Positions 3,215-25,636 of a stretch of 64,000 bases of DNA are shown one piece after another. This DNA comes from Mortierella sp. BCC40632 (taxonomy: Eukaryota > Mortierellomycota > Mortierellomycetes > Mortierellales > Mortierellaceae): NCBI GenBank assembly GCA_011634665.1, contig WAEK01000008.1, forward strand, positions 365,501 to 429,500, written 5' to 3'. The translations under genes were made by a program, and so were the position numbers. Every line of letters begins with the position of its first letter. Position 1 is the first letter of the stretch. Under the pieces are notes generated by a model. That model searched no databases, had not been told where the DNA came from, and saw only the letters and a program-made list of their open reading frames with translations.

Positions 3215-5109
3215 CTACTCTGGTGATGAAGAGGATAGGGACGCAGGCTCAACAGCATCTTTGGCCCAGTCAGGCAGGTCAGTTTCGTATGCCCAGTCTT
3301 TAGCCTTATATCTCCAAGCATGAAGATACATTATCCTTTTCTCAGGTTCGGGGTCGGCTCTTGAGGGCAGTCCGCAGAAATCACAGAACCCAGCAGCGTT
3401 AGAATCTTCGCCCTTGTCTGCAACTACTGCCGTTCCTGACTCTGCATTTGAGGTTGACTCAGCTGTGGCAGCCTCTGCCAGGGCATGGTCTGCCTCATCG
3501 TCCAGCTCTCCTCGTTCTAGCAATCTTTGGATCAGCGCCTTCTCTGTGTCTTCCGTCACACCACCTTTACCATTGAGTTCTCCCCAAACTTCTTTGTTTT
3601 GGTACAAAGGATCGTTCGTGATCGGATAACCAAGCCATTGGAGATGGACGCGGATTTGATGTGTTCTTCCAGTAACAGGTTTGGCCAGGACAATGGACGT
3701 ATCCGAGTCAGGATCATAGTGTAACCGCTCAAAAATCGTTGAGCAGGCCTTTCCATCTGGGTGGACCGTATTAAGCGTCAATTTGAAGCAGGCCACATGA
3801 ATTGGCTGATGGCATTCCGTGACTCCGCTAGATCAATTAGTTCAGCGAGAAAAATATATAGAGTTGAGAGTTGAGATTGAGAAAAGATAGGTATTGCAGT
3901 AGACACAAAGAGTATGAGTTGTACTGAGAGGTGGCAGTTACCTTGGGAACAGACCCTTGACCTTGCAGACATACTCCTTCTTGATTTCGCACTTTTGCAG
4001 CATCGTTTTAAATTCTCGCGCCTTATGGACGGTCAGCGCAAACAACATAAGTCCAGAAGTCAATCGGTCCAGTCGGTTGATTGCTACGATACAGAGATAA
4101 CCATATTAACAACAAAGATGCAATGCTGAACCCGTACCGCCATGTCAGATACTTCTGAAGGAAGAGGAGTTTGACTTACGAAAGATTTCTTTATATCCAT
4201 GCTCACGCATCAGAATATGGAGGACCGTATTGTGTCTGTAGCGGCCGCTAGGATGCACTGGGATACTGCTTGGTTTATCAACGATAATTACGCCATTGTC
4301 TTCCTTTACGACCTTGATTGGAAGATCTGCGACAGGAGGTTCGTGACGATGGATACTGTGGGCGACAATATCGCTATTCTGAACAATGTAGTCTTTGGAC
4401 ACTGTCTCGCCATTAATAGTCACTCGTCCGTCTTTGATGGCTTTTTCCTAGAACAAAGAAATGGTCACTTGGAATGTTAACACCTGCTGCGAAGAAATCC
4501 GTGGATGTGTTTCTGCGACGACTTAACTTACATAAAAAGCATTATCCCGGTCCCGAAATTCGGTGTTAAAGACTTCAATTAGCTGACGATCGAGCCATCG
4601 ACCTTTTGCAAACGTTTGGTACTTGAAAAAGTATGGCTGGATCTTTCGAAGGCCTTTTGGAAGTTTGAGAGAATAAAATATATTTGAGTGAGGCCGATAT
4701 TTCGATGTCGTGAGGATACGATCAGAAGAAATGGTGAAAGCCAAAACCATATCGACATTGGTCATTTGATTAGCATACCATTCTCGAAAAAGTACTGGGC
4801 GCTCTTGAGGTCTTCCTCAGGGGTGACGATTTCAATGCGCTTCTTTTGTTTCTTTTGCTTCTTTTGAGGCTGTTGTCCCTTTTCGTAATGGGCCTGGCCA
4901 TGCTTGGGCTCTTTATGGTGTCTCTTGGCCCCAGTAGGAGCTGTTGCTGAAGAAGCGGATGAGTGATCAGAGTCTAAGGCGGTAGTCGCTTCCGAAGTAT
5001 CCGTTGGCGGCGTGCTGATATTAGGCGAGGATGTTGCATCTGTGATAGGCGTGGACTCTGTTGAAACAAGAGCCTCTTCTGGCTTGAAGATATATCCAGG
5101 ATCGCTCAT
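3215..5109 (-). CDS. PUS9: RluA-family pseudouridine synthase (PUS9/RIB2/RPUSD2 type)
   Basis: Five exons (5109..4779, 4653..4532, 4447..4180, 4083..3942, 3827..3215) join in phase into 491 residues. Members isomerise uridine to pseudouridine in tRNA; yeast Pus9 and Pus8/Rib2 modify position 32. The catalytic block is R-L-D-R-L-T-S-G at the start of exon 4, with the expected Asp. Also visible are V-D-K-P-S-S-I-P-V-H-P, an S4-like segment (E-K-A-I-K-D-G-R-V-T-I-N-G), and G-R-T-H-Q-I-R-V-H-L-Q-W-L-G-Y-P-I. The C-terminal cysteine-containing tail (C-D-F-C-G-L-P) followed by Y-L-H-A-W-R-Y matches human RPUSD2. The first about 110 residues are low-complexity and Lys-rich. No deaminase domain follows, so this is the Pus9/RPUSD2 form rather than the Rib2 bifunctional form. 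It is divergent from the LAMTOR1-like gene. Confidence 0.92.
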
Positions 5110-17381: not shown

Positions 17382-19813
17382 CAAATACACACAAAAGCAC
17401 GCAGAGGAAAAAAGGGGGGGTGAGTGGGCGGGGGAGATATCGAGGGGAGAGCGAGAATGGTGCTGTGAGCGGGAAGGGGTGTGTGTGTTCAAAGCAAGAA
17501 GGGACAAGTGCACAAAGTGCACTTGCCAGCCCGCCCCCTTGAGCGATCTTTTTGTTCGCCAGATTGCAAACATGGACTCTCCAGAGCCACCAGGGACGTC
17601 TTCAAGGGCAGGGATGACCAAAGGCGCGGAATGAGGATGAGGCTGTCGGGCTAGAGCAGCCCTCGCCCTGAACCACTTCCGACTGGTCAATGCGAATAGG
17701 CTGGTTCTGCTGGAACCTTTTTTGCTCCACATCGGTCACTTTTTCTTATTCAACCTGGCTGCAGAGAGCTCTACCACCAAGATAGACCCTTGGAGCCGAA
17801 GCGAAAGGTCGCTGCGAATGAGAAATTTCAAGGAGGCTGGGAGGGGGGTGGAAAGGGAGTTTGAGGTGAAGGCTTTGCTGCATGTCGAGAGCTTCCGACG
17901 CGTCTGAGAAAGTGAAAAAAGTAAGGGGGGAAGGGGACACAGGACAGAGAACGAGCAGAAGGAGCAGAGAACGAACAAAAGCGCAAAGACTTCATGGCCG
18001 GGGCACTCTGTGCAGGTCGCGTCCAGGGATGATGAGGAGTGTGGGGAATGGTTATGTCCTTAGAATAGGGATACGGGTACTGAAAAAGTAAGAATGCCAA
18101 AGCTGGCCACTCTGGATTCACATTTGTCGGGTGTCTCCGTCAATTCATTTCCTGCTCCCATCAGTGCCCAATCAGTGCCCAATCAGTGTCAAATGTGTGG
18201 GAGGCGAGGACAGTGGGGGCAAGTATAGTATACATTCAGGCTTGTGGTTGAAACAGTATCAAGGGGGGAGAACTCGTTGCAGTAGACATTTACAGTTTTG
18301 ATTGCTTATAGCTTGCTGAGGAACAGATCATGCAGTGCGGGTGGCCCCTGGACTTTGGCCATTGTCCCACATCTCTGTCTAAAAAGGACGAATCTGGTCG
18401 GCACGCTCACGAGCTCTGTGTGCCAACACACTACTCAATGTCGTCTGTCTGGTATCTGCAGTAACTAGTCCCGTCCTCTGATCTGTTAAGCCATTCTGAT
18501 AGCCTGTGCTGACAGGTCGATTGTAGCGACATTCCCCATGGGATATTCAGCCAGTAACAAGCACAGTCGTAATCATGATCTGGTTGAGGTCCTGGAAGAA
18601 AGCCTCATTGATCTGTCTTCTGTCGGGGAACGGTTGTGAGGAGGAAGTAGAACGTGGTGTAACAAAAACTCACTTGTTGCTACCGGGCCCTTGGGAAAGA
18701 AATATCTGCAGTAGCCGAGTGCGACGGAAGAGGACGAAAAAGAGTGTGTGAGATGAGAAAATGAGGAAGGTGTATGTTTCGAGTTTTTGCCGAGAGAAAT
18801 AAGCACGCACCCTATGGTGAAGGGCAGGCGTGTGGAGTGAGTACTGGACGTGAGTGAGGTGGGAGAGAAGAACTCAGAGTAGTAGACTGAGGAAAGGAAT
18901 GAGGGATTAGAGGAGGATTGAGAGGATTCAATGATGCGTAAGAAAGAGCAGATGAGAAAGATGCAATGGTGGATGATCAGATGAAAAAGAGAGAGAGAGG
19001 GAGAGAGGCGATTCCACCACACCAACACCGCGTGTGCGCGGACCCTTGGGCGGAACCATGCTCTGGCCCATATTACCATACTGCATTTCGCCCGCATACA
19101 GACGATTGTTTGCCCTTTCTAACCCCTTGGCAGCCGATCGCCCACAGCGAGCACATCCGGAATGTCAGTGTGAGGAGGCGGGTATGGGCTGTTGAGACGG
19201 AGCTTGTGAGTGCACCTCCGTCAAGCCAACCTTGGCTACTGCCAGTCATTACTGCATCCGAATCTGGACGGCGGCGGCGGTTGCTACAGCCGTCGATCTT
19301 GCTGTCTTCTATGCGGGCTGAGAACGCGTCTGATACTGCTGCTGCATTTTATCAGCCTCCACACTCGCCACTCCACCAGCGTGAGTAGAGGTTGCATGAT
19401 TCGAGGACAAGAGCTCTACTGCTAAGAAGAGCACGATAGCCCATGGCAGTGCAGAGTCGGCTACATGGCCCACAAAAGTTCCTGGATCTACCTACCACCT
19501 CAGAACAAGGTGTAAGCCTAAAAAAAAAAAAAAAAAAGGCCATCGGCAACCTCAGAAACATCATCTCATCCTGTTGCAGTAACCTCCTTCGTTGCCGTGC
19601 TGCCGGTCCTTGCATCCTTTTCTTTCTTTATCTTTCTCCTTTTTTGCTCTCGTACCCACACAAACACAAGCACTCTCTCCTCCTAGACTGACCCGTTCAT
19701 CCAGCATTTTACATCGTTTGGTTCCCTCAAGCTCAACCTCCAGTAGTAAAAAAAAGAAAAAAGAAATTTTGGGGCCCCACTCTTTCAGCATCAAGCAGAC
19801 TCGCAAAAACACA
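16411..19813. other. Long divergent intergenic region (3.4 kb)
   Basis: Lies between the divergent G-gamma and MFS genes and probably holds both promoters and 5' UTRs. Contains (AC)n/(ACGC)n at 17325-17392, a short duplication of cagtgcccaat near 18161-18180, and a Ct-rich stretch at 19620-19690 before the MFS start. Many open frames are present but none has a recognisable domain or consistent coding character. Confidence 0.4.
17325..17392. repeat. (AC)n / (ACGC)n microsatellite
   Basis: Alternating AC dinucleotides followed by a run of CACG tetranucleotides. A candidate Z-DNA-forming purine/pyrimidine alternation in intergenic DNA. Confidence 0.9.
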
Positions 19814-22800
19814 ATGGATCACTCAGGGACGGACGTCATTGGTAGCGATACCACTGCCAGCAGCTCTGCTCCAGTCTTAAACTCAAAGCAGCGCTCTCCA
19901 CACCCATCTGGTGCTAGTAGAGAAGTTGCCAACGCCGGCCGTCACCAGGAGACCGGTTCCAAGATGAGCCCTTCGAGCTCAGCCTCGAAACGTCAACCCA
20001 CCGGATCTTTTGTCGCCTCTCCGATCCCCACAAAGCAATTAGCTATCTCTGATGACTCTGTTCATCAGCGTCCACAAGGTCAACGATCGAATGAATCCTC
20101 AAAGGTCCAAGACTTGCATATGTCTGAGACATCCCAGAGCGATATCCGACTCCGAGAACACCAGGCAGGAGTTTGCTTAAGCGCCGCAGATCGAGCCATG
20201 GGCTCCGAAGGACTTCCGTCTCAAGCACAAGGGATTCTTGGCAAGGGACAGGATGGAAGTGACTCTTTTGGAGGGAGTGGAGGAGCCGTTACCCAAGACT
20301 ATGTCCTTCACCAGCAAAGCTCGTCTAACTCCTCGCAGTTGCTTCCATCGCAAGGACAGGTTCCTGGTGTCCAGTACATTGAGTCATCACTTCCTGCATC
20401 CACAGCTCCGAGACAATACGACCTAAGCATTTCAAGTCAACCTGTGGCAGCCCTAAGCTTTGCAGCTCCCGAGAATAGCAAAGTCTTTACTTCTGATGAA
20501 AACACACAAAGGGACTACTACCCTATCAGTTGTGGTCTCGAGTCAAGACAAAGGGCTGATTCTGACCAGATGCATAAACGAGGGATGGCTGAAGGAGAAT
20601 ATGCCTCGGAGAGTCAAAGGAATCAGGCACACAATTACCCCAGACAAGAGGCGAGTCCAAAGTCACCTCCTCGGGCACACCGAGAGGACGCCTTGACCCC
20701 ATTCTCGCATGATCCTGACTTGAGGTCTCTATCGAATCCATCAATCCAGTCTCTGAATAGTCCTGAGAAAGAGGACTATGAGAACCAAAAGTATATTCAC
20801 TACGGTGAAAAGCGTCGGCCTTATCCAGAATTTGTTCATGATGATGAGATGGAGCGAAGAGTTGTTCGAAAATTGGACTGGAATTTACTCCCGTTGTTGG
20901 GAGTGCTTTACCTGTTCTCGTTTCTGGACCGGGTCAATATTGGAAACGCACGATTATTCGGACTTGAGGAGGCTGTTCATCTATCAAATGGTCAATACAA
21001 TATGTAAGTGTCAGCCTCTCAACTCTACTTCCCAGAAGATTGGTCCGGGTAATTTACAGCAACTGTTTTGACTGAACCGAGAGATGAACATGACCTTTCT
21101 CTCTCTCTCTTCCTTTCTCTAGAGCACTAGCCTCATTCTTCTTGGCCTATTGTGCCTTTGAAATCCCTTCGAACTGGGTCCTGGTCCGTATTGGTCCCAG
21201 ATTATGGATTCCTATCCTCATGGTGGCATGGTAATTTCGATACAATGCTCTTGGTACACTTGATCGGTCAAAGCAGCCAGTTCTACCTTTCTAAAGCCTC
21301 AATGTTGAAATCTGATTACGTGGAGTATAGGGGTTCAATTAGTCTGGCTCTGGCTTGGGTGATATCTTTCACGGGTCTTCTCATTGCACGTTTCGCTCTA
21401 GGCACTGCCGAAGGTAGATATCATGCCCTCATTGTCTTTCAAGGATCTGAGGGTCTCGATAATCCCAAGGTTCCTTCCACTAATACCTCTGAATTCAAAT
21501 CTTCTCCCTCTCTCTCTCTCTTCGTGGCAGCGGGATTTGTTCCTGGTGTACTATATTACCTTACCCTTTTCTACAAAAGGTCCGAACACTCGCTTCGGAT
21601 TGCTATTTTCCTGTGTTTTAACATCCTCGCTGGTGCTTTCGGAGGACTTCTTGCCGCAGGGATCGCCAGTCTTTCGGGTGTATGGGGTCTTGAAGGCTGG
21701 CAATGGATCTTTATCATAGAGTCGATCCCTACGATCCTCTTGGCAGGCCTTACCTGGATTGTACTCACGCCTTCCCCCGAAACAGCCAAGTTTTTAACAC
21801 GCGAAGAACGAGTCTATGCTGCTAATCGAATTTTGATGGACTGTGAGGTCCGACCGTCGGCGGAAGCTTCTTGGCGACAGAGTCGGTCTGCATTGACTGA
21901 CGTTCATGTGCATCTACTTTGCATTGCAGCATTGTTCATGTACATGCCCAACGCAGGAGTGGTCTTGTTTATGCCTTCGCTTATCGCTGACATGGGCTTC
22001 AAGGCGTAAGTAATATTCTAACCGACAAATACCACGTCAAAGAGAGACCAAAGAAAGAAAAAACGCTGACTTATCGCTATCCTATTAGAACCACGGCTCA
22101 ACTATTGACTGTTCCACCATATACTGTCGCCGCCATTATGTCGTTGATATTCCCATGGTGGTCTGATCGAATTCGAGTCCGAGGTGTATTTGTCATTCTC
22201 TTACCTATCCTTTCCGCGGCAGGGTTCCTTACCTTGGCCCTGGTCGAACACACGTGGGGTAAGTATTCTTCGATTTCTTCATCTTGCTACTTGCCGCATA
22301 CAAGTAGAATCAAAATGTAGACTAAAAAAAAAACTCCCCTTACTCTGCACATACCCCTTTCTTTCAACTAGTCCGGTATACTGCAGTCATCTTTGCCATG
22401 GCAGGCATGGTCCCGTCTTCATCGATCCTAGTGTCCTGGCTAACCAATAACTGTGTTAGTCAATCAAAACGAGCAACAGCCTTGGCAATGCTGGTCTCGT
22501 CTTCAGGACTGGGCGCTTTGGCTGGATCTCAAATTTATCGCTCTTCTGATGCACCTCGCTACCGTAAGTGGATCTCGAAAAATGCCAATTCTCCATACTA
22601 ACACTGACGACTATTTTAATGTCTATTTTGCTCTGACTGACTTTTCTTTCTTTTTTTTTTTTTTTAAAAAAAAATAGAGCATGGCCACCTCATAATGGCG
22701 GGTTCCATTATAGTAGCCATCACAGTATGCATCATAACTCGGATTACCCTTTCACGCGTAAATAAGAAGAGGGACAGAGACGTGACTGGTGGGTTGAATA

Positions 22801-22874
22801 TGCTGCAGTCCATGTCTGAGGCACAAATCAACGAGCTTGGCGAAAAACATCCCAATTATCGATACATACTGTAG
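19814..22874 (+). CDS. MFS permease, allantoate/Dal5-Thi73-Tna1 family
   Basis: Seven exons (19814..21003, 21123..21230, 21331..21413, 21531..22005, 22089..22258, 22372..22563, 22678..22874) join in phase to 804 residues. From about residue 350 the protein is a 12-helix major facilitator of the anion:cation symporter family: W-N-L-L-P-L-L-G-V-L-Y-L-F-S-F-L-D-R-V-N-I-G-N-A-R, then A-Y-C-A-F-E-I-P-S-N, the G-x-A-E-A-G-F-V-P-G-V loop after helix 4, and W-Q-W-I-F-I-I-E. Members import carboxylates or vitamins; yeast Thi73 belongs here and is thiamine-repressed. The first about 350 residues are an unusual Ser/Gln-rich, probably disordered cytosolic region. The ATG at 19814 follows a T-rich leader; an earlier in-frame ATG at 19592 would add a Lys-rich stretch and seems less likely. 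The gene converges on THI5. Confidence 0.88.
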
Positions 22875-23145
22875 ACAAGGGTTTCTTCATCTACACTCAT
22901 TCTCTAGTCACCATAGTCAATCTATTTCATGTATTCCATCTATAGCGATTACTTAACATTTTTTTTTCCGATGAGCTCAATATAAACAATAGCCGTTTTG
23001 ACCGAGCAAATGAGCTAGAAGTCTGATAGATTCCAGGTGTTTTATTGTCGAAATCGTGGATAATAATAGGCTGCTCTTTTGCTGCAGTGAGAAAGAGAGA
23101 TTGAGGATAAAAAAAGGACCGGCATATTCGATAGGAACGATGCTC
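22875..23145. other. 3' flank between MFS gene and TPP riboswitch
   Basis: Contains the plus-strand 3' flank of the permease gene. On the minus strand it holds a pyrimidine-rich 3' splice site ending at 23082 and AATAAA at 23046..23041, both downstream of the TPP riboswitch. No ORF of interest. Confidence 0.55.
23041..23046 (-). terminator. Candidate poly(A) signal of the THI5 transcript
   Basis: AATAAA on the minus strand, about 95 nt beyond the 3' end of the TPP riboswitch and about 525 nt beyond the THI5 stop. It is the first clear AATAAA on this strand after THI5, which fits a transcript that carries the riboswitch in its 3' UTR. Confidence 0.5.
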
Positions 23146-23257
23146 GGTCGACGCTTCCCTTCGCAGAAATTACTCTGATCAGGTAATGAGAGTATAGTCT
23201 CAGCCGTAGAGTCCTACTCTTTTCAAAGTAGAACTCGTGGCACCCCTAGCGCCGACC
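23146..23257 (-). promoter_or_regulatory. TPP riboswitch (THI element)
   Basis: Read on the minus strand, all conserved TPP aptamer blocks occur in order: GGGGUGCC (from 23246), GGCUGAGA, ACCUGAUC, then a UAAU/CUGCG segment and AGGGAA. The P1 helix is GGUCGGCGCU (23257..23248) with AGCGUCGACC (23155..23146): ten pairs, one of them G-U. A P3 arm pairs GAGUUCUACUUU with AGAGUAGGACUC over a GAAA loop, twelve pairs. The element binds thiamine pyrophosphate and controls splicing in known fungal and plant cases. It lies about 315 nt downstream of the THI5 stop on the same strand, and no minus-strand gene follows it before the opposite-strand permease, so it most likely sits in the THI5 3' UTR. A strong 3' splice site (pyrimidine tract then CTGCAG, ending 23082) follows it, and a GTAAAG donor lies at 23555, just after the stop. 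Confidence 0.93.
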
Positions 23258-23571
23258 ATGGCCCGACTCTGTGATTCATTCAAGAGTGGTACAAAGTCGT
23301 GTTGTCATGTTTTTTTTTCCAGGTCAAAAAAGATTGAGGGAGTTCGGCATCGGATTGGTTTCGCACGAAAAGGATCGGATCGAGGGTGGCGAACAATACA
23401 AAAGAAAAAAATTAGTACTCTTTTTCAACAGTCAACCCTCTCCCCCTCCTCTTATCTTGTACCCCCCCCTCCCCCTCCCTCTTCCCCTCCAATATATCAT
23501 CCCCGATAGAGGATTTAACCCATTTCAAAATTGCCCTGAGAAGGACAGTCTTTACCATCATTGCCCTCTAT

Positions 23572-24698
23572 TCATGCCTGGACGGCGATAGGGGCAGCGG
23601 CAACGGAGCTGCAAGGGCACTTGGCCAACACTCCAGTGTCGATCGTGGGGTGGATGAATCCGGGGGCCGACTCAGGATCCAAGGTCCAGGTCAGGAACTC
23701 GTTCGTCTGATTCTGGACAAACTGATCATCCACAATCTCCAGTCGCTTGCTGTACTTGGTGACCTTGTCCCAGTCGCGTTGGACGTTCTTCAGGTCACGC
23801 GACATGTATCGGTAAGAGCGCTGGTAGATCTTGCGGTTCACTTCACTGTGCATGTGGGGCTTCATCTCTACAAAGAGCTCATAGGCAGCAGCAGGTTCGG
23901 CAAACATAAAGTCCGCGCCACGCTTCACGGCCTTCATGAAGGCCTTCACCTTCTCGGGGTTGTTCTGGAGGAAGGTCTCGTTGCCAATGAACAAGATCTG
24001 AACCATGGAGCCGAGCAAGGTTTCTAACGCATTAGTACTCAAAGCAATCTAATATCACACTGAACACATGTTTTTTCTTTCCCTTGCAGATTTACCGAGC
24101 AGAAGCAGCAGCATCCAAGATCTGCAAGCTCATCAATGCGAAGCATCTTGACATCATCGCGCGAACGGCCTTGTTGGACAGACCATTCCTCGAGTTCAAC
24201 CATTTGAACGTTCTCGAGACCAATACCGGCGTCAATCTCGCCACGGATAATGGCATTGGTAACATTCATGCCAACACGGACAGCCGTATAGTCCGCAGGA
24301 GTCATGCCATAGTAGCGAGTCAGCTCGTCCAACTGGATCTTTCCAAACTCGCCCACGTATCCGATACGCTTGCCACGCAGACTCTGGAAATCGGTCGTGA
24401 TCCCGCTCTTGGAAGCCAGATAGACGACACCCGTGAAAGGTTCATCCAGGAGAGTACCAATGGACTTGATCGGGAAGCCCCGAGCCTTGCCGGCAATAGT
24501 GTGGATCATGGCCTTGCAGCCGAGATCCACCTTGCCAGATCCGATGATCTCAGTCACATCCGATGGGTTGTTGGGCTCAAGGATGGCGACCTTGATACCT
24601 TCCTCGACAAAGTAGCCAAGCTTCTCGGCAAGGAAAAGAGGCAGGTGGTAAGGGGTAGCGTGCCAGTTCAAGAGGCAGGTGATCTTGTCGGTCGACAT
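23572..24698 (-). CDS. THI5: HMP-phosphate synthase, thiamine pyrimidine biosynthesis (THI5/NMT1)
   Basis: Two exons, 24698..24096 and 23997..23572, give 342 residues against 340 in yeast Thi5. The enzyme makes the thiamine pyrimidine HMP-P from its own active-site histidine and from pyridoxal phosphate, a single-turnover reaction. The PLP lysine (K62) and the sacrificial His66 are present in C-K-A-M-I-H-T, and the iron-associated C-C-C-F-C motif is at about 196-200. Other matches: [19 protein letters not shown] and Y-V-G-E-F-G-K-I-Q. The acceptor is the TTCAG at 24000..23998, which restores I-L-F-I-G-N after C-C-C-F-C-S; an earlier TTAG puts the frame out. The last about 25 residues diverge from yeast. 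A minus-strand TATAAAG lies about 155 nt upstream of the ATG, and a TPP riboswitch lies downstream of the stop. Confidence 0.97.
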
Positions 24699-24852
24699 TC
24701 TTGGAAAGGTTTGGAGTAGGTAGGGGAGTGAGAGAGGGTGTAGATTGGGAGAAAGGGGTACTTGCTGGCGGGGATCAGAGTGAATGAGAGGAAGAAGGAA
24801 GAGGAAGAAAGAAGAAAGAAGAGTTGGTCACGAACTCGAGGAATCCCCTGGT

Positions 24853-24859
24853 CTTTATA
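24853..24859 (-). promoter_or_regulatory. TATA box of THI5
   Basis: TATAAAG on the minus strand about 155 nt upstream of the THI5 ATG, within a GC-rich flank and followed by a pyrimidine-rich leader. A strong TATA box fits a sharply regulated, thiamine-repressible gene. The leader between it and the ATG is about 125 nt and shows no TPP aptamer blocks. Confidence 0.6.
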
Positions 24860-25636
24860 CCAGCATTCTCCCCTTTTCCTTCCTCTCCTTTCCTCCCTGC
24901 TCATGCTCGGGTTCCCACGATCGATATGCAGAGATGGCTCAAGGACAGGCGGCAGTTACTTCCGATAATCGCCCCCAAAATTTCGGCGTTCAATATATGA
25001 TCCATTTGTGCAGAGGCGTGTGTATGTGTGTGTGTATTTGTAGAGATCCGGGCGGTACGACCATGAAGAACAACGAGGATGAGTGGTTAACGCCCTAGTC
25101 TCGGGTGCGGAGTTTGGTGCCCCTCCAGGATGAGTCAATTGCTGGCAGAACACCTGTTCGCGTGGGAGCCATGCTCGTATCCTGTCCAAAATCCATGCCT
25201 GCCTGTGCCTGCTGCCTTATCTTTGACGCGTTGCGGTAACCCTTTAAGGCGGTAGACAACTAGCTTCCGAGAAGCGGTTCTGCAGGCTCGAAAGAAGAAA
25301 GAATAGCGGGGAAAGCCGCTCTCACTCGGCACTAGGCTGGGCGCAATGCACGAGTGTTGTATTTTTTTTCTTTCCTTCCTCCTTGTGGGCCAAAGAACAA
25401 ACAAAGAGGCAGCGGGTCACAGCCAGGTTCTATTTTGCATAGACACGGAGAAGAACGAATGCAAAGTCGAAATTAGCTTGGCTCGGAAGTCTGATGATGG
25501 AGAGCAAAAAGATCGCACAAACGTGGCTTGGTAAACGGCGAAGGAAGGTTGGGGCAATGGGTTTTGCCGTCCCACTCCCCACTGTCTAGGATAGATCATT
25601 CTCCACACAAAATGGGACAATGAATCCGACGGACCA
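24860..25636. other. Divergent promoter region, THI5 / CENP-B-like gene
   Basis: Separates THI5 (-) from the plus-strand DNA-binding gene. It contains a short GT-rich tract near 25020-25037. A CGGGTGCGG / GGTGCCCC pair near 25104-25125 superficially recalls a THI element but lacks the other blocks. No gene seen. Confidence 0.45.

Follow-up and report, generated by a model that had tools for sequence, protein, structure and literature searches.

A TPP riboswitch aptamer behind the stop codon of THI5 in Mortierella sp. BCC40632, with a proposed link to 3′-UTR splicing

Four types of fungal TPP riboswitch (I–IV) have been described, lying in a 5′-UTR intron, in a coding intron or in the 5′ UTR of a single-exon gene (Mukherjee 2018, PMC5882874). 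According to the accessible sections of the relevant papers, the fungal switches studied so far work through splicing (PMC5882874, PMC5997356), and riboswitches of DUR31 thiamin transporters are covered in the latter. A 3′-UTR position is that of the plant THIC riboswitch, which is treated in the available portions of PMC10226581, PMC12371167 and PMC5853225. In the part of PMC4260697 open to us, 3′-UTR TPP aptamers are also reported on SSUA/THI5-like genes of Aureococcus and Micromonas. The original prediction for the locus described here, which equated a 3′-UTR aptamer with the plant THIC arrangement, is thus correct with respect to plants but not in treating the layout as peculiar to THIC.

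Overall, this place for the aptamer is known from plants and some algae and is hardly described for fungi. The conclusions of PMC5882874 name '3′ UTR' once among the places observed and give no case, and Mortierella is absent from its main text. PMC11683625, from whose main text Mortierella is also absent, treats TPP cases of Mucoromycota and a sugar-transporter group with the aptamer in 5′ UTRs. PMC4133162 records a TPP riboswitch in all basal fungi compared, its place being unstated in the portion available, and the accessible text of PMC8786325, PMC12335538 and PMC5640933 holds nothing on fungal 3′ UTRs. The open papers, supplements aside, yielded no description of a 3′-UTR TPP layout for fungal THI5; the novelty claimed in the original prediction holds to that extent, but is tempered by the single mention in the conclusions of PMC5882874.

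The aptamer and its position behind THI5

The locus lies within a 64,000-nt stretch of DNA from Mortierella sp. BCC40632, the whole of which is referred to here as the window. Its principal features are as follows:

23146–23257, minus strand: TPP aptamer (RF00059), P1 to P1; the Rfam range is 23139–23257
23572–24698, minus strand: THI5/NMT1 gene, 342 aa, with one intron (24095–23998) and the stop codon TGA at 23574–23572
19814–22874, plus strand: convergent MFS transporter gene, hand-read model

A covariance search with RF00059 (E-value threshold), which had been named in the original prediction as one of its checks, gave 23139–23257 on the minus strand as the top-scoring match in 22000–25500, aligned to model positions 1–105 of 105. 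The match is full-length, though its score of 50.3 bits lies below the Rfam gathering cut-off of 54.3; the E-value is 3.9e-8 for the 3.5 kb searched and 1.3e-7 genome-wide (49.9-Mb assembly). Run at Rfam gathering thresholds, cmscan gave no report anywhere in the window. No second TPP match was present in 22000–25500, a stretch that includes the 5′ side of THI5, and an aptamer on that side of the gene was rejected on this basis. Matches to miRNAs and snoRNAs at 24768–24908 were dismissed as repeat-like and far under their cut-offs.

With respect to structure, the element pairs at 10/10 positions of P1 (23257–23146), 5/5 of P2, 3/4 of P4 and 4/4 of P5, and the three positions checked in core P3 all pair. 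The conserved blocks follow one another in the order AGGGGTGC, CTGAGA, ACCTGATC, TAAT and GCGAAGGGA, and the set that defines the family, namely P1–P5 together with the CTGAGA, TAAT and GCG..GGGA blocks, is present in its entirety. Folded in isolation, the aptamer reaches −52.8 kcal/mol (z −5.56), a stability equalled by none of 200 shuffled sequences. Judged by its sequence, the TPP aptamer at 23139–23257 on the minus strand is real, and the original description of a complete aptamer with its blocks in order and a ten-pair P1 is borne out.

The identity of the upstream gene is supported by PF09084 matches on both exons and by the best structure matches of exon 1, which are the solved THI5 and THI13. 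A protein search with exon 1 found 1482 proteins at E 0.001 or better, the best 120 of which were considered; among the matches listed, the proteins of Actinomortierella wolfii and Mortierella antarctica are 97% and 96% identical, respectively, and the best listed match likewise reaches 97%. In an alignment with 12 relatives picked from the best 120 of the 1482, the C-termini coincide to within a few residues, which argues that the stop codon at 23574–23572 is the normal end of the gene. A second THI5 gene was rejected, as the genome gives a single match to exon 1.

The aptamer lies on the sense strand 314 nt past this normally positioned stop, in agreement with the distance of about 315 nt first given. 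No minus-strand ORF of at least 100 aa is present between 23572 and 19097, that is, for 4.4 kb behind the stop, and the minus-strand ORF at 18573–19097 has no Pfam match. A role for the aptamer as 5′ leader of some coding gene further along the minus strand was therefore rejected, there being no ORF of this size until 19097. The MFS gene, being convergent, leaves the aptamer with no same-strand neighbour on that side. This MFS gene carries a long N-terminal extension, and its best NCBIfam matches, which are under cut-off, are galactonate and hydroxyphenylacetate transporters.

The apparent 3′-UTR placement put forward originally is thus supported, both by the lack of a same-strand ORF of at least 100 aa within 4.4 kb to which a leader could belong and by the two SSF genes described below, which show the same aptamer position. 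Taken together, these observations make it very probable that the 23139–23257 element is a sense-strand 3′-UTR aptamer of THI5, and the aptamer probably regulates. We infer that THI5 mRNA runs through the aptamer and that TPP is bound there; splice-site use and the direction of control, taken up below, are put forward on the same footing.

Aptamers behind two SSF transporter genes

Across the genome, the RF00059 search gave at least three matches at E 0.001 or better, a count that is a lower bound, as 49 of 1719 first-look candidates were scored. A core aptamer pattern produced four genome matches versus none for a reversed control, and a looser pattern six versus two. The two extra matches of the looser pattern, both on C10, were rejected, given that the control also produced two and that, on visual inspection, the sequence separating the fixed blocks does not look TPP-like; these places (C10:1019020-1019081 and C10:1110950-1111000) are related non-TPP sequences. 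One further, diverged copy turned up when the C15 aptamer served as query in a DNA search. The aptamer-like places number five, at THI5 (C8), at the SSF genes SSF-A (C15) and SSF-B (C2), and at two copies on C15 that lack an SSF gene. The four other than THI5 score 45.5, 45.5, 33.1 and 29.7 bits, and all five (29.7–50.3) fall under 54.3 and are therefore missed by annotation at the gathering threshold. The core patterns had 0 matches in further collections of genome contigs and viral contigs, among which no THI5 relatives were confirmed.

SSF-A and SSF-B are paralogous (70% identical), and the C2 protein used as a query finds these two only. PF00474 matches the SSF genes over its cut-off and reveals one more such gene, on C3. 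In a protein search that scored 7998 candidates and gave 65 proteins, the closest named SSF protein belongs to Lunasporangiospora selenospora (90%); the protein ends of SSF-A and SSF-B resemble gene models of this species. Both aptamers are on the sense strand, that of SSF-A (L006:5815-5518) beginning 369 nt past the stop and that of SSF-B (L021:7864-8070) 428 nt past it. Each of the three gene-linked aptamers found is thus a sense-strand element located past the stop codon, at distances of 314, 369 and 428 nt. This recurrence is the best evidence against an accidental placement at THI5. There was no TPP match in 8.5 kb at THI4 (E 0.01) or in 9 kb at the third SSF gene (E 0.5).

Measured from P1 to P1, the SSF-A and SSF-B aptamers span 298 and 207 nt, respectively, and have very long P3 arms. 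The Rfam 5′ boundary of the C15 aptamer (L006:5603) was rejected, since the pairing P1/P2 strand is found ~210 nt further upstream, past the very long P3. In isolation both fold natively, with z −4.93 for SSF-A (0/100 shuffles) and z −6.99 for SSF-B (0/200). The letters of P1 differ among the three aptamers, yet they pair at 10/10 positions in THI5 and at 5/6 and 8/8 checked positions in the SSF aptamers. Two-sided changes separate THI5 from the SSF aptamers in P4 (T-A to A-T) and P5 (A-T to G-C), and the changes in P2 are one-sided. All three have G-A as the final pair of P4, and core P3 of both SSF copies has a C-A mismatch (3/4 pairs). This comparison draws on a small sample of three sequences. 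When the SSF-A and SSF-B 3′ UTRs are compared by blastn, a core block of 55 nt aligns at 96%, the remaining alignments listed are pyrimidine runs, and most of the UTR around the aptamer does not align.

These comparisons bear on whether the aptamers are relics, that is, inherited or copied sequences that have fallen silent and lost their regulation. A precedent is offered by the diatom THIC aptamer (PMC9544697, as far as its accessible text goes), and the two C15 copies without an SSF gene, one of which has lost CTGAGA, point in the same direction. The retention of core letters and pairs in the three gene-linked copies, with two-sided changes and in a setting where most of the surrounding SSF UTR is unalignable, argues against such a loss, which we regard as rather unlikely.

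The gene-less C15 copies of the SSF-A aptamer region (L005:6209-6955 and L034 about 4481-4892) lie within a larger repeated segment. One is 99% identical to the SSF-A region over 747 bp; the other is about 75% identical and has CTGAGA changed to CTAAGA. In both, similarity to SSF-A starts at L006:5845, 2 nt past the predicted SSF-A 3′-UTR acceptor.

On the same strand behind the SSF-A aptamer (L006) there are ORFs of 112 aa, 285 nt on, and of 98 aa; behind the SSF-B aptamer (L021) there are ORFs of 103 aa, 527 nt on, and of 618 aa, ~1.9 kb on. None has a Pfam match. A small-protein ORF of the MiAMP1 family (PF09117), again on the strand of SSF-A, is located at L006:2406-2702 (minus strand), 2.8 kb behind the SSF-A aptamer. 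The small ORFs (112 aa on L006 and 103 aa on L021) would fit a scheme in which the aptamer belongs to a separate transcript, which at THI5 would start between 23571 and 23257 on the minus strand and would either be non-coding or supply the leader of some distant gene. In keeping with this, the available part of Donovan 2018 (PMC5997356) lists a TPP riboswitch from Brettanomyces bruxellensis that lies in a poorly coding region. The lack of a minus-strand ORF of at least 100 aa from 23572 to 19097, the Pfam-less ORF at 18573–19097 and the occurrence of the same arrangement at three genes all count against a separate transcript, and we consider it highly improbable. The case against a leader role for a small ORF is stronger at THI5 than at the SSF genes.

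Splice and 3′-end signals around the aptamer

Several candidate processing signals flank the THI5 aptamer, all on the minus strand:

23550–23555: GTAAAG, candidate 5′ splice site, beginning 16 nt past the THI5 stop
23534–23545: TCCTTCTCAGGG, the stretch of upstream UTR that best complements the P4/P5 strand of the aptamer, immediately past the donor
23411–23417: TACTAAT, candidate branch site
23271–23411: AG-free tract of 141 nt
23269–23270: first AG to follow TACTAAT (AATCACAG), a candidate acceptor 11 nt before P1
23082–23087: CTGCAG, second candidate 3′ splice site, preceded by a pyrimidine-rich stretch
23041–23046: AATAAA, possible poly(A) signal, 35 nt past CTGCAG

As a reference we used seven hand-read introns of 83–137 nt, which start with GTAAGT (4), GTAAAT, GTAAGG and GTATGC; the candidate donor GTAAAG resembles the second and third of these. 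The heptamer TACTAAT also occurs in the THI5 coding intron (24031–24037). TACTAAY as a whole is not enriched in the window (4 seen versus 5.24 expected), and of its three other occurrences two are in coding introns, one in THI5 and one in the MFS gene. Introns whose branch site is far from the acceptor are known to have an AG-free zone between the two. The tract seen here, which contains 37 A and 19 G, has a chance of 0.002 by composition (20,000 shuffles), and 140 AG-free nucleotides are met at 1.3% of 10,000 random window positions. A second branch-like sequence, TTTTGAC, lies 55 nt before the AG at 23270–23269. The candidate 3′-UTR intron, at 287 nt, and its branch-to-AG distance of 143 nt are both beyond the range of the seven hand-read introns.

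The order originally proposed, with GTAAAG at 23555–23550, the aptamer, CTGCAG ending at 23082 and AATAAA at 23046–23041, was recovered at just these positions. The GTAAAG donor also stands, but CTGCAG as the lone acceptor does not, given that TACTAAT and the AG-free tract favour the AG ending at 23269. On these sequence marks, the AG at 23270–23269 is the better-marked candidate acceptor of THI5, with CTGCAG at 23082 a second possibility.

The SSF genes show related signals. SSF-A has a plausible intron from GTGAGT (+149) to CATCCAG (+339), ending 32 nt before P1, and SSF-B a weaker GTAACC-to-GTCTAG candidate close to P1. Donor-like sites (GTGAGT at +374 in SSF-A, GTAAGG at +438 in SSF-B) also fall within P1/J1-2/P2 of these aptamers. 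Such a site near P1/P2 can be due to chance, because GTRAG occurs six times in each SSF stretch scanned (1587 and 2569 nt). No donor is present within P1/P2 of the THI5 aptamer, unlike in the SSF aptamers, and no single platform therefore fits all three.

In terms of mechanism, we propose that the aptamer is part of the 3′ UTR of the THI5 mRNA and that TPP, once bound, exerts feedback on THI5 by way of RNA processing in this region. A 3′-UTR intron would open at GTAAAG (23555), use the distant branch site TACTAAT (23417–23411), and end either at the AG at 23269, 11 nt before P1, or beyond the aptamer at CTGCAG (23082). P1/P2 stabilized by TPP would alter acceptor choice or intron removal, and the product formed at high TPP would be less stable or less used, possibly because of an exon junction located past the stop, or because the 3′ end retains the folded aptamer. 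Mago and UPF3 matches are present in the genome, which makes decay via a 3′-UTR exon junction possible. We assign the proposal as a whole, a 3′-UTR aptamer of THI5 with TPP feedback via 3′-UTR splicing, a probability of roughly 45%.

TPP could also act on 3′-end formation or stability directly, without splicing, with the aptamer, 99 nt before AATAAA, altering cleavage, polyadenylation or decay. This is consistent with the short distance at which AATAAA follows the aptamer in THI5 (AATAAA at +528, end of the aptamer at +428) and in SSF-A (at +759 and +669, respectively). In SSF-B, however, AATAAA first appears at +1261, 623 nt past the aptamer, and in the accessible account of the diatom THIC 3′-UTR aptamer that was tested, thiamine shifted neither splicing nor 3′ ends (PMC9544697). 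Direct control of this kind is, in our view, unlikely.

A route of the plant THIC type would work differently. There, as long as TPP is absent, the 5′ splice site is masked by the P4/P5 strand; TPP frees the site, a 3′-UTR intron is removed together with a poly(A) site, and the resulting long mRNA decays. In THI5 the best P4/P5 complement (23545–23534) does sit just past the donor, with a local p of 0.073, or 0.042 by duplex energy. Shuffled THI5 UTRs nonetheless reach the pairing score in 51% of cases (45% by duplex energy), SSF-A and SSF-B lend no support (0.99 and 0.84; 0.81 and 0.21 by duplex energy), and neither AATAAA, ATTAAA, AATATA nor TATAAA is present between the THI5 donor and CTGCAG. 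With a global p of about 0.5, the aptamer–donor pairing was rejected as proof of the plant mechanism, which we judge improbable here.

Folding of the whole UTRs gives no clear direction. The predicted cost of forming the native aptamer is 8.1 kcal/mol in THI5, 15.5 in SSF-A and 3.1 in SSF-B, and with the native fold imposed the donor opens in SSF-A (unpaired 0.42 against 0.07) and closes in SSF-B (0.03 against 0.18). Firm claims from these calculations were rejected, the effects being small or opposite in sign between genes, and such modelling neither helps nor settles the splicing model.

Comparison with known TPP riboswitches

The 3′-UTR placement is likely right and extends more widely than the THI5 case first noted, and the splicing model has been partly redrawn. 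The THI5 aptamer resembles RF00059 in its full-length covariance match, its P1–P5 helices and its CTGAGA core, and departs from it in its sub-gathering score and in P3, an arm that is atypical in the THI5 aptamer and greatly extended in the SSF copies. The aptamers of this genome share with the fungal NMT1/THI4/DUR31-type riboswitches the same aptamer type and the same kinds of gene, NMT1/THI5 and SSF transporters, as described in the available text of PMC5882874 and PMC5997356. The position of the THI5 aptamer behind the stop places it outside fungal Types I–IV, whose outputs through uORFs or premature stops (PMC5882874, as accessible) are unworkable there, and another output is therefore needed, such as 3′-UTR splicing, 3′-end choice or decay.

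Among algae, the THI5-like genes of Aureococcus and Micromonas offer the same 3′-UTR placement, but they are reported as single-exon in the portion of PMC4260697 available and are not fungal. The diatom THIC aptamer is likewise in the 3′ UTR, but the one tested was unresponsive to thiamine according to the accessible part of PMC9544697, and it too is not fungal. The Mortierella locus would thus test whether 3′-UTR aptamers outside plants work at all, a question that the diatom study answers in the negative for its own case.

A broader and more doubtful suggestion is that the TPP riboswitch of Mortierellaceae has generally shifted from a position ahead of the gene into the 3′ UTR, at THI5 and SSF genes, where it would act via splice sites in or beside P1/P2 as a fungal 3′-UTR splicing switch that arose independently of that of plants. 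An output from the 3′ UTR of THI5 would be a counterpart of the plant THIC switch, with another enzyme involved. As in THIC, the aptamer follows the stop of a pyrimidine-branch gene, with a candidate donor between stop and aptamer (PMC10226581, in its accessible portion). The two differ in that the gene is THI5 rather than THIC, that none of the four poly(A) motifs occurs between donor and CTGCAG, and that the candidate acceptor here lies beside P1, with masking of the donor weakly supported.
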